Part shown: positions 5,080 through 21,009 of the stretch, piece by piece
Layout: every line of letters begins with the position of its first letter
Numbering within the stretch: position 1 is the stretch's first letter
Source of the DNA: Gammaproteobacteria bacterium
GTDB lineage: Bacteria; Pseudomonadota; Gammaproteobacteria; Xanthomonadales; Wenzhouxiangellaceae
Length of the DNA stretch: 64,000 nt
NCBI GenBank assembly: GCA_021772975.1
Contig: JAJFKY010000008.1
Location: forward strand, 1-64,000
Reading direction: 5' to 3'
Position numbers and translations under genes: made by a program
Notes under the pieces: generated by a model
What the model saw: only the letters and a program-made list of their open reading frames with translations
Database searches by the model: none
What the model was told of the DNA's origin: nothing

Positions 5080-5172
5080 TTAATACTCCTCGGCCAGCAT
5101 GATGGTGAGGACGCGGTCGGGTCGAGCTAGGTCAGCCGGTAGATGTAGATATCCCCTTGACGACCTGTTTGC
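5080..5172 (-). pseudogene. Possible frameshifted small-gene remnant
   Basis: Directly behind the 5176-5478 gene, two overlapping minus-strand frames each look coding over part of their length: 'RQGDIYIYRLT' and then 'DLARPDRVLTIMLAEEY' ending in TAA at 5080-5082. A one-base shift would join them. The first part resembles the GGDIYLYPI end of the 6647-6889 protein. I read it as a decayed small mobile-element gene; the evidence is only protein-like texture. Confidence 0.3.
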
Positions 5173-5175
5173 CCG

Positions 5176-5478
5176 TTACGGCTTGGTTTTTTCGCTTTTG
5201 GCGACGGTTAGCAACCCCACCAAGTGTTGAATGATTTGGACGTGGCGGTGCATGGCCCAGAGATAGCTGTCTTGCAGCGGTTCGGCCAGGGCTGAGAAGT
5301 GCGACGGGGTTTCGCCGTGAATCAGAGCCAGCATTGCCCTGAGTTGACTTAAGTGTTCGTCCAGCACATCGGTAAGGCTCAGCGCCGAGGCTTGGGCGTT
5401 GATCAGGATAACGCCGTGTTCGTCCAGCGCCATAGTGTTGGCCGGATATTCCACCGGCTTCCGGTTACTCTTGCTCAT
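5176..5478 (-). CDS. Small mobile-element protein of unknown function
   Basis: A 100-aa protein starting MSKSNRKPVEYP. The ATG at 5478 is preferred (ggaaaa upstream) over a TTG at 5556 that lies inside a recombination-site palindrome. The middle contains ALDEHGVILINAQAS, followed by helical segments with SYLWAMHRHVQIIQHLVGLL. No membrane segment, signal peptide or catalytic motif is visible. A broken paralogue lies at 270-632 in the same orientation. The gene is divergent from the DNA invertase, with two Hin-like sites in the intergenic region, so its expression may be switched by inversion (inference). I do not recognise the family. Confidence 0.65.
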   Translation of the reverse strand: MSKSNRKPVEYPANTMALDEHGVILINAQASALSLTDVLDEHLSQLRAMLALIHGETPSHFSALAEPLQDSYLWAMHRHVQIIQHLVGLLTVAKSEKTKP

Positions 5479-5552: not shown

Positions 5553-5572
5553 GCAAAAACGAACGTTTTTGC
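5553..5572. repeat. Hin/gix-like crossover site, AA core
   Basis: Arms gcaaaaacg (5553-5561) and cgtttttgc (5564-5572) flank a 2-bp core AA. The half-site CAAAAAC matches the core of hix-type sites recognised by Pin/Hin-family serine invertases, which also cut at a central dinucleotide. It pairs with the site at 5699-5720. Confidence 0.55.
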
Positions 5573-5698
5573 TAGCCTGCAACCCTTCATACCTTGATGA
5601 ACGGAGTCTGTGACAGGACAAAGTGAGATAGAAGCTGGGATGGCAGGCCACGGGCGGGGGCAAAAGGGGGCTTTATTCCAAGGCCCAAAACCGGCCCA

Positions 5699-5720
5699 GA
5701 CAAAAACGTTCGTTTTTGTC
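5699..5720. repeat. Hin/gix-like crossover site, TT core
   Basis: Arms gacaaaaacg (5699-5708) and cgtttttgtc (5711-5720) flank core TT. The core reads AA on the other strand, so relative to 5553-5572 the site is inverted, the arrangement that gives inversion and not deletion. It lies 45 bp before the start of the invertase gene. Confidence 0.55.
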
Positions 5721-5765
5721 CAGGATACGGGGGCAAGAAGGTGAGAAAGGGCGGCAATCGAAGCA

Positions 5766-6323
5766 ATGCCAAAACGGCTGGGCTATATCCGAACATCAAC
5801 AGATGAGCAGTTGACCGACCGACAGGTCATCAAGCTGAAAAAAGTCTGTGATCAGATCTTCATCGAGGATGGGGTTTCGGCGGTGAGCAAGGCCCGGCCT
5901 GTTTATGGTGCTGTTATTCGCAAGCTCAAAAAGGGCGATACGCTGGTGGTGTCTTCGATAGACCGCGCTTTTCGCTCAGCCCTGGACGCGCTCACCGAAC
6001 TGGACAAACTGCACCGGCGCGGTGTTCAGTTTGAGTCTCTTGCTCAGACCCTTGACACCACCACGCCCGATGGTAAGTTTTTGTACACCCTAGCCGCCGC
6101 CCTGGCGGCCTGGGAGCGTGACATCTTGAGCCAGCGCACCAAGGAAGGCTTGGCCGCCGCCAAAAAGCGCGGCAAAACCCTGGGCCGCCCCCGAAAACTG
6201 ACGAGTGAGCAAATCGCCGAAGCTCGGCACCTACTGAAATCAGGCCATAGCAAGTCAGTTGGTGATCTTGCCAGTGCATGGAACGTTCATGTCCGTACGC
6301 TCATCAGAGCGCTTCAAGAATGA
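5766..6323 (+). CDS. Serine recombinase, Pin/Hin-type DNA invertase or resolvase
   Basis: A 185-aa protein of the length of Hin, Gin and Pin. The N-terminal catalytic domain begins GYIRTSTDEQ with the nucleophile Ser11. It continues with KGDTLVVSSIDRAFRS, corresponding to the conserved 'DTLVVWKLDRLGRS', and with LAALAAWERDILSQRTKEGLAAA, the E helix and activation region. A hinge GRPRKLT leads to a C-terminal helix-turn-helix (about 145-185). It would cut at a 2-bp core and rotate the strands. The two palindromes immediately upstream are plausible targets. No strong Shine-Dalgarno is visible. The alternative role is resolvase of a transposon, but no transposase is nearby. Confidence 0.85.
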   Translation: MPKRLGYIRTSTDEQLTDRQVIKLKKVCDQIFIEDGVSAVSKARPVYGAVIRKLKKGDTLVVSSIDRAFRSALDALTELDKLHRRGVQFESLAQTLDTTTPDGKFLYTLAAALAAWERDILSQRTKEGLAAAKKRGKTLGRPRKLTSEQIAEARHLLKSGHSKSVGDLASAWNVHVRTLIRALQE

Positions 6324-6646: not shown

Positions 6647-6889
6647 TTAGCCCTCATCGGCATCGGTGATGGGATAGAGGTAGATATCGCCACCGATGAG
6701 TTGTGTGCCGGTGAGGCGGAGGCCGATGCCGCTATCTTTACGGTTCCAGGCGACCCCGATCTGTTCCAGACGACTTTGCTCACCGCGTTGAACGGGGCCT
6801 TTGACCACCCAGTCGGGTTTGTTGCTTTGGGCCGGAACATTGGTTTCAGGAACGGCCTGAGCGGTTTGGGTTGGGATTTGATTCGTCAT
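6647..6889 (-). CDS. Small conserved-type mobile-element protein
   Basis: An 80-aa protein with a strong Shine-Dalgarno (ggagaa, 5 bases before the ATG). The N-terminus is polar and disordered (TQTAQAVPETNVPAQS). From about residue 27 it reads KPDWVVKGPVQ...RLEQIGVAWNRKDSGIGLRLTG. The 'IGVAW..KDG.G..L.L...P..G....' layout is common in short proteins of conjugative and integrative elements, which carry no assigned function. It is monocistronic and ends in a strong terminator. Real gene very likely, role unknown. Confidence 0.75.
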   Translation of the reverse strand: MTNQIPTQTAQAVPETNVPAQSNKPDWVVKGPVQRGEQSRLEQIGVAWNRKDSGIGLRLTGTQLIGGDIYLYPITDADEG

Positions 6890-14124: not shown

Positions 14125-16467
14125 TCAATAAACTCCCTTGGTTGAAAGTTCAGTTTCTTCGGCTGGTTTATCTTGGCCATCGAGGCTGGGCGGGTCTTGA
14201 TTCATCCATTTGGCCAAACGATCATCCTGGTAGGCAAAGGCTTTGTTGGCCTTGATGGGTTTGGCACCGGAACTTAGGATCAATACTTTATCTTTGAATT
14301 CAGGGCCGGTGAGATCACTGATCTCAACCAACTGGCGGCGTGAACCATCCACGATGCTTTCAATCTGCCCCAGGATTTTGGTTAGATGCTCGGCTGTGCC
14401 ATCATTGCTGGCGGGGTTCATATAAGCTTGAACAGCACAAGACCCCATCAGGCCGTCAGCATTTTTATAATGCTTTTTAAGCTGGCCAATGGACTGGATG
14501 ACCATAAACAGTTTCAGACCGTACTGCCGTCCTAACTCCAGCGCTTCCTCAATTGGTGACATGTATTTAAGGCGCGGCAACTCATCCAGCATGAACAAAA
14601 TATCGGGTGAACCTTGCTGGGGCAAATCCTGGATAAGGCTGCGGATTTGAGTACCAATAAAAACCCGCAACAAACTGGCATAGGCATCAATTTCTCCGGC
14701 CTTAAGAGAGATATACAAGGTGACGGGCTTGTCACCCCTCCGTAAATCCAATGGATGCCAATCCGATTGACGGGTGGCCCTTTCGACGCGTGAGCCTTCC
14801 CAGGCGCTCATGAAAGTTTGGGCTTGTTGCCGGATGCCATCGAGTGTTTTCTCTGAACTCCCAGTGGCATTAATCCAGCCTTCGGCAGCATTCTTCATGG
14901 CATTAACGGGAGATTCACATAAAGTCGCCAGCATCTTTGTCCAGTCCCGGCCATAGCAGTAGCCCACCACATTGGCCATGTCACGGTCTACGGGATCATT
15001 CTTCAGGCATTCAACAGCAATGGCAGCGGTGATGAGGTCGCGGGCGCGGTTTTCCCAAAACGGGTCTTTGGTTTCTGAGGCAACGACCATCAGATCAGCC
15101 AAGTATTTGCAATCTTCCCAGATATAGTCTGGGTGATTACGGATCAGCGTTAAGGGGTTAAAGCTATGAGAGTTACCCGGATCAAGCGGCGAAAATTTAT
15201 AGACTGGCCCTAATTCAGCACGGCGGCCAGCGGTTTTGTCCCATAACTCGCCTTTGACATCCAAAATGACAGCCGGGCCGTTCCAGTTCAAAAGATTGGG
15301 AATGACATGGGTCTGGGTTTTGCCTGACCCTGGTGGGGCAACGGTAATCACCGAGCCTTCACCCGTAAACCAGCATGGCCTATTATCCGGCATTTTACCC
15401 AGGAACAAACCACTGGTTTGGGGGTTTTGATTGCTAAAACCTGTCCCATCAAATTGCCCACTGTCCAGCCAGGCATTGCCTGCCTCTAACCGGCGGTTGA
15501 TTTCATCAAGAACTATCTTTTCCGGGCCAGTTACTTGGGCGAAGGTGATAATTTTGAGCAGCGCGCTAAGAGCAGAATCAAAATTTTGGTAGTCACAGAC
15601 ATTTTTTGCAAACCATTCAAATGCACCTGTGCCACTATCCACCATGGTATCGTTTAGATACCTATCGCCTTTAAACTCCCGTTTATAGAGAGTGTAATTA
15701 TAAGCATCAAGATTACCCTTTCCATCTGCCCAGATTAGAGCAGAATTGAGGTTATAACTTTGTTCTTGGTTCATGAGGCAGATTTCAGCGAGACGCAAAA
15801 TACGGCAAGCTTCAAGCTCCCTGTAACTCATTGATGATAATGATCGAGAGATTGTGAAATGCAATTTGGCACAAATTTTTTCTGGCACTGAACGCCATAT
15901 TGAATCGTTATAGTCTCCTTTCTTAATCTCCTGTCGTTTTAGCCCGTTAAACTTGACACCATTTATGTAATAAATGCATAAGCGAATACTGCCATTTTTA
16001 CTATCAAAAACCCGGTTGGTTTCGTCAATGCGTTTAAGATAGTTTTGCTTTCTTTGTGCTTCTGGTATCACCGGAACTTCTGGAATGGGTTGTTCTTTGA
16101 AGTGCCGTTCAATGAACTCAGAAGAAAACAAGGTTATCAGGCCAATAATTAAGCCCGCTGTAATGACGATGTATAAATTCGGTATGTTGATTAGTCCACT
16201 GTCAGCGATCAGATAACTGATCAGTGATAATGCGACAAGGACAAGTAATCGGATCAAAAACTCTGCCCTAGGGCTTTCAGTTTTTTTATCAATCAGAGCC
16301 ATTTGGGCAATGAGCAAAACAGTCAACCCAATCAAAATGTAGTACCAGGTTAATTCACCCCAATGGTTGAAATACTCTTCATGCTCAAAAACGAACCTGA
16401 GCGCAATAATGCCCACTGCTGCTAATGCCCAGATGAAATACCTGATTACTTGTAAGACGATTTTCAT
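14125..16467 (-). CDS. Type IV coupling protein, VirD4/TraG-like ATPase
   Basis: A 780-aa protein with gggag before the ATG. Four hydrophobic segments occupy about residues 5-25, 40-58, 70-88 and 97-115. A cytoplasmic domain follows, with Walker A APPGSGKT (377-384) and Walker B LFMLDE (624-629). The T4CP/TraG signatures AVILDVKGELWDKTAG (399-413) and FMVIQSIGQLKKHY are clear. Such proteins pump relaxase-bound DNA to a type IV secretion channel. No relaxase or Vir/Tra channel gene is seen within the window, so the element may be mobilisable, may have the rest to the left of base 1, or may have lost it. Confidence 0.92.
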   Translation of the reverse strand: MKIVLQVIRYFIWALAAVGIIALRFVFEHEEYFNHWGELTWYYILIGLTVLLIAQMALIDKKTESPRAEFLIRLLVLVALSLISYLIADSGLINIPNLYIVITAGLIIGLITLFSSEFIERHFKEQPIPEVPVIPEAQRKQNYLKRIDETNRVFDSKNGSIRLCIYYINGVKFNGLKRQEIKKGDYNDSIWRSVPEKICAKLHFTISRSLSSMSYRELEACRILRLAEICLMNQEQSYNLNSALIWADGKGNLDAYNYTLYKREFKGDRYLNDTMVDSGTGAFEWFAKNVCDYQNFDSALSALLKIITFAQVTGPEKIVLDEINRRLEAGNAWLDSGQFDGTGFSNQNPQTSGLFLGKMPDNRPCWFTGEGSVITVAPPGSGKTQTHVIPNLLNWNGPAVILDVKGELWDKTAGRRAELGPVYKFSPLDPGNSHSFNPLTLIRNHPDYIWEDCKYLADLMVVASETKDPFWENRARDLITAAIAVECLKNDPVDRDMANVVGYCYGRDWTKMLATLCESPVNAMKNAAEGWINATGSSEKTLDGIRQQAQTFMSAWEGSRVERATRQSDWHPLDLRRGDKPVTLYISLKAGEIDAYASLLRVFIGTQIRSLIQDLPQQGSPDILFMLDELPRLKYMSPIEEALELGRQYGLKLFMVIQSIGQLKKHYKNADGLMGSCAVQAYMNPASNDGTAEHLTKILGQIESIVDGSRRQLVEISDLTGPEFKDKVLILSSGAKPIKANKAFAYQDDRLAKWMNQDPPSLDGQDKPAEETELSTKGVY

Positions 16468-19343: not shown

Positions 19344-19377
19344 CCAACCCATAGTTCATCAAGAAAGGATGGATGTC

Positions 19378-21009
19378 ATGATGCAATCAACCGAAACCCT
19401 TCATGCTCAAAACGATGAGAGCAGCCACACCAGTTCCTCAAAACCTGTACAAAAAGCCCTTCTGTATTGCCGTGTGTCAGACCCGAAGCAAAGAATTCAT
19501 GGCAGTGGCTTGGAAAGCCAAGAACATCTTTGCCGTGAGTATGCCGCCAGGAAAGGCTATGAAGTCGAAGCGGTATTCCCTGATGATGTAACGGGCGGAG
19601 GGGATTTTATTGATCGCCCCGGTATGGTGGCTTTGTTGCAATATCTTGAGGACAATGCCCACACAGACTATGTGGTGATCTTTGACGATCTGAAACGGTT
19701 TGCCCGCGCGACGCTGTTTCACTGGAAATTGCGCCATGAACTATCACTGCGCCGGGCCACGCCGGAATGCCTGAACTTTAATTTTGAGGACACACCCGAA
19801 GGCGAGTTCATGGAAACGATTTTTGCAGCCCAAGGTCAACTTGAGCGGCAACAAAACCGCCGTCAGACCATACAAAAAATGAGGGCGCGCATGGAAGGAG
19901 GCTATTATGTGTTTTTCCCGTCCGTGGGGTATCGCTATGAACGGGTCCAGGGCCACAGTGGCAAACTTTTGGTCAGAAATGAACCGGTTGCCTCCATCCT
20001 GCAGGAAGCCTTAGAGGGTTTCGCCTCCGGCCGCTTTGAAACCCAAACCGAATTTAAACGGTTTCTGGAAAGCCAACCCGCCTATCCGAAAGACTTCCCG
20101 AATGGTCAAATCCGCATGCAACGGATTAAACAATTACTGACACGCCCCATCTATGCTGGGTATATCGATAAGCCTGACTGGCAAGTCTTTATGGTCAAAG
20201 GTCAACACGAACCGCTGATCAGCTTGCAGTGCTATGAGCGCATCCAGCAACGCTTGAAAACACAAGCCAAAGCCCCGGCCAGAAAAGATATCAATCAAGA
20301 TTTTCCCCTGCGCGGCTTCGTGCTTTGCGGGGATTGCAACAAACCTCTGCGGGCGGGCTGGACCAAAGGCAACACCAAACGCTATCCCTACTATCTGTGT
20401 CAAACCAAAACCTGCAACAGCTACGGCAAATCCATCAAACGCGCCGATATTGAAGGCGAATTTGAAACCCTTCTGAAGAAACTCAAGCCTTCAAAAGAGC
20501 TTTTCCAACTGACTTGTGCCACCTTTAAGAATAGCTGGGATAAAAAGGCAGCCTCGCTGAAAGATCAGGTCAAAGTCGTGAAAGGCCAGATCAAAATGCT
20601 GGAAAAGCATATTGAAGGCGTTGTTGACCGCCTCGTTAAAACGGAAAATCAGACAGCGATTACAGCGTATGAAACGCGGTTGTCCAAACTGGAAAGGGAG
20701 AAGATTATGTTGATTGAAAAAGCCCAAGTTGCGCCCAAACCGTTACGCCCCTTCCACGAAATGCTAGAACTCGCGCTCTCATTCCTCGCAAACCCATATA
20801 AACTCTGGGCTTCCGAGCAATTGGAGGACAAAAGAACAGTCTTGAAACTGGCGTTTTCAACCCGGATTTCATATGACCGGGAAACGGGGTATAGAACCCC
20901 CAAAATCGCCTTGCCTTTCAAGCTGTTACACGACTTGACAGCCCCTCAATGTCAAATGGTGCCGGGGAGAGGACTTGAACCTCCACAGGGATTACCTACT
21001 GGTACCTAA
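19378..21009 (+). CDS. Large serine recombinase (integrase) of the element
   Basis: A 543-aa protein from ATG 19378 (aagga 8 bases upstream); ATG 19369 is possible. The resolvase-type catalytic domain begins ALLYCRVSDPKQ, with nucleophile Ser34. It is followed by a recombinase domain (about 180-300), a zinc ribbon with Cys317, Cys320, Cys341 and Cys346 (CGDCNKP and YLCQTKTC), and a coiled coil (about 395-455). This is the layout of phage and element serine integrases. The last 17 codons and stop are antisense tRNA-Leu sequence, so the reported C-terminus exists only in the integrated state. It would catalyse integration into, and with a partner excision from, the tRNA gene. Confidence 0.93.
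   Translation: MMQSTETLHAQNDESSHTSSSKPVQKALLYCRVSDPKQRIHGSGLESQEHLCREYAARKGYEVEAVFPDDVTGGGDFIDRPGMVALLQYLEDNAHTDYVVIFDDLKRFARATLFHWKLRHELSLRRATPECLNFNFEDTPEGEFMETIFAAQGQLERQQNRRQTIQKMRARMEGGYYVFFPSVGYRYERVQGHSGKLLVRNEPVASILQEALEGFASGRFETQTEFKRFLESQPAYPKDFPNGQIRMQRIKQLLTRPIYAGYIDKPDWQVFMVKGQHEPLISLQCYERIQQRLKTQAKAPARKDINQDFPLRGFVLCGDCNKPLRAGWTKGNTKRYPYYLCQTKTCNSYGKSIKRADIEGEFETLLKKLKPSKELFQLTCATFKNSWDKKAASLKDQVKVVKGQIKMLEKHIEGVVDRLVKTENQTAITAYETRLSKLEREKIMLIEKAQVAPKPLRPFHEMLELALSFLANPYKLWASEQLEDKRTVLKLAFSTRISYDRETGYRTPKIALPFKLLHDLTAPQCQMVPGRGLEPPQGLPTGT

Follow-up and report, generated by a model that had tools for sequence, protein, structure and literature searches.

The window, by which we mean the whole 64,000-nt stretch analysed (bases 1-64000 of contig C22), probably carries a self-contained DNA inversion switch on an integrative mobile element, with the recombinase gene itself as one of the clients of the switch. 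In the mechanism that we propose, the small serine recombinase encoded at 5766 would bind two palindromic sites and invert the 145 bp that separate the AA core of one from the TT core of the other. In relatives, this segment would act as one expression start, comprising a promoter where one is recognisable plus, in many loci, a ribosome-binding site or start codon. In orientation A, which is that of the window, the expression start would face the recombinase gene; in orientation B, it would face a divergent gene, usually one for an exported-looking protein. State A would make the recombinase, and state B the exported protein and little recombinase. We infer that the recombinase catalyses the flip, that its transcription would fall in orientation B, and that the window copy may still work on its present neighbour.

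Paired palindromic sites in the window

The left site, CAAAAACG-AA-CGTTTTTG (5554..5571, plus strand, core at 5562-5563), and the right site, CAAAAACG-TT-CGTTTTTG (5701..5718, plus strand, core at 5709-5710), are perfect 18-bp palindromes whose sole difference is the 2-bp core, by which the right site is inverted relative to the left. An earlier reading of the sequence alone had described exactly such a pair, with inverted AA and TT cores, although the 126 bp that it gave between the arms is actually 129 bp between the palindromes (5572-5700). The sites are spaced 147 bp centre to centre and 145 bp core to core, the latter stretch (5564..5708, no strand assigned) being the segment predicted to invert, as the corresponding segment of a relative, locus L011, appears to have done naturally. 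From the end of the right palindrome to the recombinase start codon there are 47 bp.

Exact matches to CAAAAACGNNCGTTTTTG in the whole window are confined to these two sites. With up to 3 mismatches allowed, the window holds 3 matches against an expectation of 0.37, a count that no shuffle out of 100 attained. Likewise, the best inverted pair in the 330 bp 5' of the recombinase gene is this pair, at 19/20 positions, compared with 13 in each of three shuffles and at most 15 in a set of 20 shuffles. On such counts, in the window and in the upstream regions, chance palindromes were rejected as an explanation. A search of the whole genome (3.74 Mb in 24 contigs) at up to 2 mismatches found one further pair, on contig C6, and no sites elsewhere.

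Centred on the cores, the window pair matches at 18/20 positions in inverted order and at 16/20 in direct order. It matches well in direct order also because each site is itself a palindrome, and the order is inverted because the AA and TT cores set it so. This near-equality, together with the AT cores without polarity in 10/37 relatives, would suit a resolvase with its res locus, or a dimer-resolution site of a mobile element, as would the location on a mobile element and the relatedness of the family to gamma-delta and Tn3 resolvases as well. We nevertheless judge that explanation very improbable, given the inverted AA/TT cores of the window and the apparent natural inversion in L011. A res locus of the Tn3 type, with direct sites and accessory subsites, was rejected as a candidate on the inverted cores and on the finding of no third site copy in the window at up to 2 mismatches.

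Within the segment predicted to invert there begins a short reading frame (5640..5744, plus strand, anti-SD energy -4.9), a possible leader peptide, which crosses the right site and, by eye, is fused to neither gene. On visual inspection, the segment seemed likely enough to hold a conserved RNA hairpin; folding z-scores were mostly weak, hence it is not claimed.

The recombinase

The recombinase gene (5766..6323, plus strand) is intact. Its 185-aa product consists of a resolvase catalytic domain (PF00239, 2e-36) and a C-terminal helix-turn-helix (HTH_7, PF02796, 7.6e-6), both above the curated cut-offs, and is by this architecture a small serine recombinase. When the family profile (A1) was compared with the PDB, the nearest solved structures were 4m6f and 3uj3, both named DNA-invertase; the match to 4m6f (2.5e-43), against that to the gamma-delta resolvase 2gm4 (1.6e-27), places the family closer to the invertases. 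The sites lie, as first read, between the 5176-5478 gene and an adjoining invertase-like gene. Ser11, the presumed catalytic serine, is invariant among the recombinases compared. The recombinase gene has its own ribosome-binding site either way round, with an anti-SD energy of -6.9 in both orientations.

A family of site pairs beside related recombinases

Relatives were drawn from one scan of genome contigs (25 loci), a plasmid search and whole-genome searches. The last were positive in 4/61 genomes closely related to that of the window (E 1e-25) and in 3/369 genomes of its class (E 1e-50). Groups centred on relatives, at E 1e-60, gave 6/295, 6/295, 4/120, 3/210 and 3/345 positive genomes, counts that include the centre genome, the second 6/295 sharing five positive genomes with the first. 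At least 5000 plasmid records contain a match; among the four examined, L036 has the site pair and L037-L039 are without it. Phage records with a match number 374, all under 60% identity, and viral contigs contributed one distant relative. The family is found mainly in records titled as environmental Pseudomonadota; L008, titled Acidobacteriota, and L017, titled Chloroflexota, are from metagenome-assembled genomes, where misbinning is possible.

In total, 40 loci including the window carry an inverted pair of near-palindromes, 115-147 bp apart (centres), upstream of the recombinase gene; 37 of these had a pair assigned, and L089, L090 and L091 were found by scan. The invertible unit of the window had been thought unusually short, but 115-147 bp is normal in this family, and at 147 bp the window has the longest segment, tied with L062. 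In 35/37, no other inverted pair spaced 100-160 bp apart within the 330 bp upstream outscores the assigned one; in L071 and L074, where another does, the pair was assigned by likeness to relatives. Cores are AA/TT, AT/AT, AC/GT, TT/AA or TC/GA and are complementary in 37/37, a count that is partly circular, the sites having been aligned to each other. Polar cores occur in 27/37, all 27 inverted, and the remaining ten are AT. In 32/37, the two sites match better inverted than direct when 20 positions are compared; in 2 the two orders score the same, and in 3 (L017, L071 and L074) the direct order scores higher. Because the sites are palindromes, their order rests mainly on the core.

A site pair was looked for upstream of the recombinase in a close relative, L076, and none was found there. 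Among seven more distant recombinases of the same genomes, 5 are without a pair, while L062 and L066 have one. Loci L022-L035, L037-L039, L063-L065, L068 and L069 were treated as distant relatives, and 19 of these served as controls. Their best inverted pairs score 13 to 15, like shuffles, except for L022, which reaches 18/20 from a non-palindromic repeat. Loci not recounted are L042, which is the same place as L009, and L043 and L045-L059, which repeat loci already in the set.

In a tree that left out L044, L076 and L091, 36 recombinases with the arrangement make up one side of a branch with support 100/100. The window recombinase is nearest to that of L007 (88/66, short of what the tool counts as a firm branch). 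The recombinases of L062 and L066, no less distant than some of the controls, group with the controls outside the switch clade, yet have an upstream site pair of the type AAAAGGG.

Natural inversion and orientation

The segments of L008, L009, L010 and L012 align directly to each other, with scores of 16 to 36.5. The L011 segment aligns to the same four when reversed, scoring 35 inverted against -13 direct with L009, 38.5 against -5.5 with L012, 26.5 against -7.5 with L008 and 18.5 against -15.5 with L010. Its outer half-sites are unmoved, and its inner half-sites have swapped sides. On sequence evidence, L011 is a natural inversion product, the pattern being that left by recombination between the cores; this one locus, from a metagenome-assembled genome, is the only one in the flipped state. 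All nine Nitrosomonadaceae copies share one orientation. The window segment aligns better, but weakly, in the common orientation. L007 against L013 scores 9.5 inverted and 3.5 direct though their end motifs agree, and we take this slight preference for noise at that distance. Both orientations in one species were sought in two Methylocystis parvus plasmid records (L087 and L088), which contain no recombinase in the 6.3 kb examined. In these plasmids, a relative of the alphaproteobacterial divergent gene adjoins an IS6 transposase.

The palindromes might instead be operators only, through which the recombinase represses its own transcription with no inversion. Autoregulation would suit palindromes placed close to where the gene of a DNA-binding protein begins, and most comparable loci are in one orientation. 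We hold this reading to be improbable. Operators have no need of complementary cores, L011 appears to be inverted between its cores, and flipping would deliver ribosome-binding sites in 10/11 loci, as set out below. With inversion as the preferred reading, the predominance of orientation A may have explanations such as repression by bound recombinase, a bias of the reaction or a cost of orientation B.

Translation signals and promoters within the segment

The start of the divergent gene was compared between the present state and the state with the segment inverted in silico. In 11 loci of the alphaproteobacterial group (including L017, titled Chloroflexota), the divergent ATG lies 5 nt beyond the core, so that the ribosome-binding site must come from the segment. 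On inversion, the anti-SD energy at the divergent gene becomes better in 10/11 and ties in one (L020), changing, for example, from 1.2 to -4.5 in L075 and from 0.1 to -6.5 in L072; the Wilcoxon p of 0.001 is generous because the 11 loci are related. Without L071 and L074, the gain is seen in 8/9, with one tie.

In other members, inversion would deliver the start codon as well. To illustrate, the only in-frame divergent start in the present state of L007 is a TTG inside the hydrophobic stretch. With the segment inverted, an ATG within it (energy -8.1) yields MARQKRSFLYGAGWTRIASAFVLLGLLVTPVWAEP, by eye a signal peptide. In the present state, the same ATG opens a frame that continues into the recombinase, for which there is a separate ATG as well (-5.9), and nine shared first codons (MARQKRSFL) would fuse in frame to either protein. 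As in L007, the only start ahead of the hydrophobic stretch comes with inversion in L044 (-5.6) and in the C6 switch (-3.3, weak). Most other loci, among them the window, have a start and a ribosome-binding site that belong to the divergent gene itself, and inversion there could therefore change transcription only. The recombinase start lies outside the segment with an energy of -3 or better in both states in 28/37 loci, the window among them, the exceptions being L015-L019, L061, L067, L071 and L075.

Promoters were scored with a hand-entered sigma-70 frequency matrix. In a 14-locus clade (the alphaproteobacterial group and C6), the best recombinase-ward sigma-70-like match places its -10 element 38-41 nt from the left core in 10/14, with L036, L071, L073 and L074 as exceptions. 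The recombinase-ward match exceeds that in the opposite direction in 28/37 loci; taken singly, it reaches p 0.05 or less in 3/37, L018 being among them in both directions. In the window segment, no sigma-70 promoter stands out with the matrix (p 0.69 recombinase-ward and 0.09 divergent-ward), and a consensus search likewise found none. The sequence-only reading had envisaged a switch between divergent genes that would flip any promoter inside the segment. Its first part survives in kind through the relatives (the recurrent pair, the L011 flip and the translation signals), with no promoter recognised in the window itself. Its second part holds insofar as a promoter is recognisable in the segment of one group of relatives, and falls short in that many relatives also have a ribosome-binding site or start codon there.

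We see about an even chance that the family is a portable, self-referential module, in which one flippable 5' leader is common to its recombinase and an exported protein. Such a leader would consist of a promoter, a ribosome-binding site and sometimes a start codon with the first codons. Transcription of the recombinase would take place mainly while the exported protein is off. Once on, the exported protein would therefore stay locked in that state until leftover recombinase turned the segment round again.

Divergent genes of relatives

A divergent gene was found by automatic frame choice in 33/37 loci. By the same procedure, L010, L015, L016 and L067 have the switch and recombinase with no divergent gene. 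A hydrophobic stretch near the N terminus (mean of at least 1.8 across 11 residues), which serves as a rough proxy for a signal peptide, is present in 28/33 divergent proteins, those without it being the proteins of the window, L018, L036, L079 and L081. The starts in L079 and L081 were probably picked too far upstream, and in L036 an alternative frame begins with a hydrophobic stretch. The divergent gene thus appears usually to encode an exported-looking protein.

These proteins form several groups unrelated to each other. Two of them, in L008 and L009, are PEP-CTERM proteins by Pfam, which returned nothing above cut-off for the other divergent proteins submitted to it. Two Nitrosomonas-family genomes (G820 and G831) have three switch copies each (L077, L078 and L080-L083), and 5/6 of these face proteins of the group that includes the L008 and L009 PEP-CTERM proteins, L077 facing an unrelated one. 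A model of the alphaproteobacterial divergent family shows a small helical fold (mean pLDDT 80, residues 1-32 below 50), for which Foldseek gave no match at E 0.001 or better. In a second structural comparison, the top matches were HdeA (Z 7.9), YmgD (6.2) and Rap1a (5.9), all under the tool's safe level.

The divergent gene of the window

The presumed second client in the window is a divergent gene of 100 aa (5176..5478, minus strand), an orphan without a signal peptide. Searches with its product, through 120 other genomes at E 0.001 and through the plasmid collection at 1e-5, found no match. Within its own genome, its only relatives are a fragment on contig C12 and a remnant at 309-548 of the same contig, about 5 kb away, which is a paralogue at 53% identity with one internal stop. 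On visual inspection, 5081-5160 (minus strand) looks similar to the final part of a small gene at 6647-6889 (GGDIYLYPIT), as if it were a decayed copy.

With no recognisable promoter, and with an orphan as divergent gene whose product lacks a signal peptide, the window switch may have had its target replaced. The same features, along with the paralogous remnant 5 kb away and a longish recombinase branch in the tree (0.54), speak for a working switch family of which the window copy is partly decayed or re-neighboured, flipping there controlling only the recombinase or nothing useful. We consider this rather unlikely, though a real possibility; the perfect sites and the intact recombinase frame with its anti-SD energy of -6.9 argue that recombination is maintained. 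Recombination is likely in the window copy, and control of 5176-5478 by flipping is less certain than recombination itself.

The mobile element and a second switch

To the right of the switch, the window encodes RadC, a type IV coupling protein (14125..16467, minus strand, PF02534, 1.5e-63) and a large serine recombinase (19369..21009, plus strand, PF00239, PF07508 and PF13408), a probable integrase. The gene for the latter directly precedes host genes of the RNase R (RNB) and SpoU methylase (SpoU_methylase) families. From these neighbours, we infer that an integrative element with its right end near 21 kb carries the switch. The sequence-only reading had the switch regulate an unknown gene of a mobile element; in the reading proposed here, the recombinase itself would be one of two clients.

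The second switch of the genome, on contig C6 (G000:C6:79816-80355; L006 and L040), has AT cores, sites 116 bp apart and a recombinase 44% identical to that of the window. Its neighbours are a relaxase, a protein that we name here MobC-like, and RadC. Neighbours were compared across 18 loci and the window, with flanks of differing length and with the rest of the window's own contig as one of the 18. A relaxase of the same family occurs near the switch in L008, L009, L011, L017 and C6. A gene that we take to be ArdA-like is near the switch in L007, L008, L009, L010, L011, L012, L014 and L016, the matches in L008 and L010 being short.

Comparison with known inversion systems

Invertible promoters are best known from bacteria of the gut and from pathogens. 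The present family would be a very small version of an invertible promoter, carried on mobile elements, with the enzyme under its own switch. If so, the module amounts to a naturally occurring circuit with two states and its own feedback, of less than 1 kb including the enzyme and small enough for the whole to be tested in E. coli. It would also mean that inversion can swap translation signals and the protein start, beyond transcription alone.

The family resembles the Hin/Gin-type invertases in having a small serine recombinase with a C-terminal helix-turn-helix and two inverted palindromic sites with a 2-bp core. The invertible segment of the Hin system, about 1 kb long, includes the gene for the invertase, and inversion requires an enhancer bound by Fis. 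In contrast to Hin and Gin, the family segment measures only 115-147 bp from centre to centre and does not include the recombinase gene, which would be one of its clients. Mpi of Bacteroides fragilis is a serine invertase that works on short promoter segments and acts on many distant promoters. It is alike in combining a serine invertase with short segments, and the window protein does score against the Mpi model NF009949, but at 66 bits, below the cut-off of 272, and so is not an Mpi member. Unlike the situation with Mpi, no further sites were found in the window genome (at up to 2 mismatches) beyond those of the second switch on C6.

Expression of fimE depends on the orientation of the fim switch. 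As described in the available part of one source, fimS of E. coli is a 314 bp invertible element in which a promoter serving fimA is flipped by the recombinases FimB and FimE at 9-bp repeats (PMC8777976). On that account, fimS and the window switch are alike in placing a promoter in a short flipped element and differ in enzymes, repeats and client (PMC8777976). For a switch in which the invertible leader serves two genes and the invertase gene is one of them, we found no description in the literature searched, which took in few subscription papers and included portions of PMC11892184, PMC11868660 and PMC5903667; such absence is weak evidence of novelty.

The IP-ARG classes of Bacteroidales integrative and conjugative elements, as far as the available portion of the source describes them, combine an invertase with an adjacent invertible promoter, both carried by a conjugative element (PMC8748976). 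There, the promoter regulates cargo, the invertase lies upstream of the promoter, and the invertase tree is rooted with tyrosine integrases (PMC8748976). Against that partial description, the system proposed here differs in having a serine recombinase, whose own gene would be the alternative client of the switch (PMC8748976).
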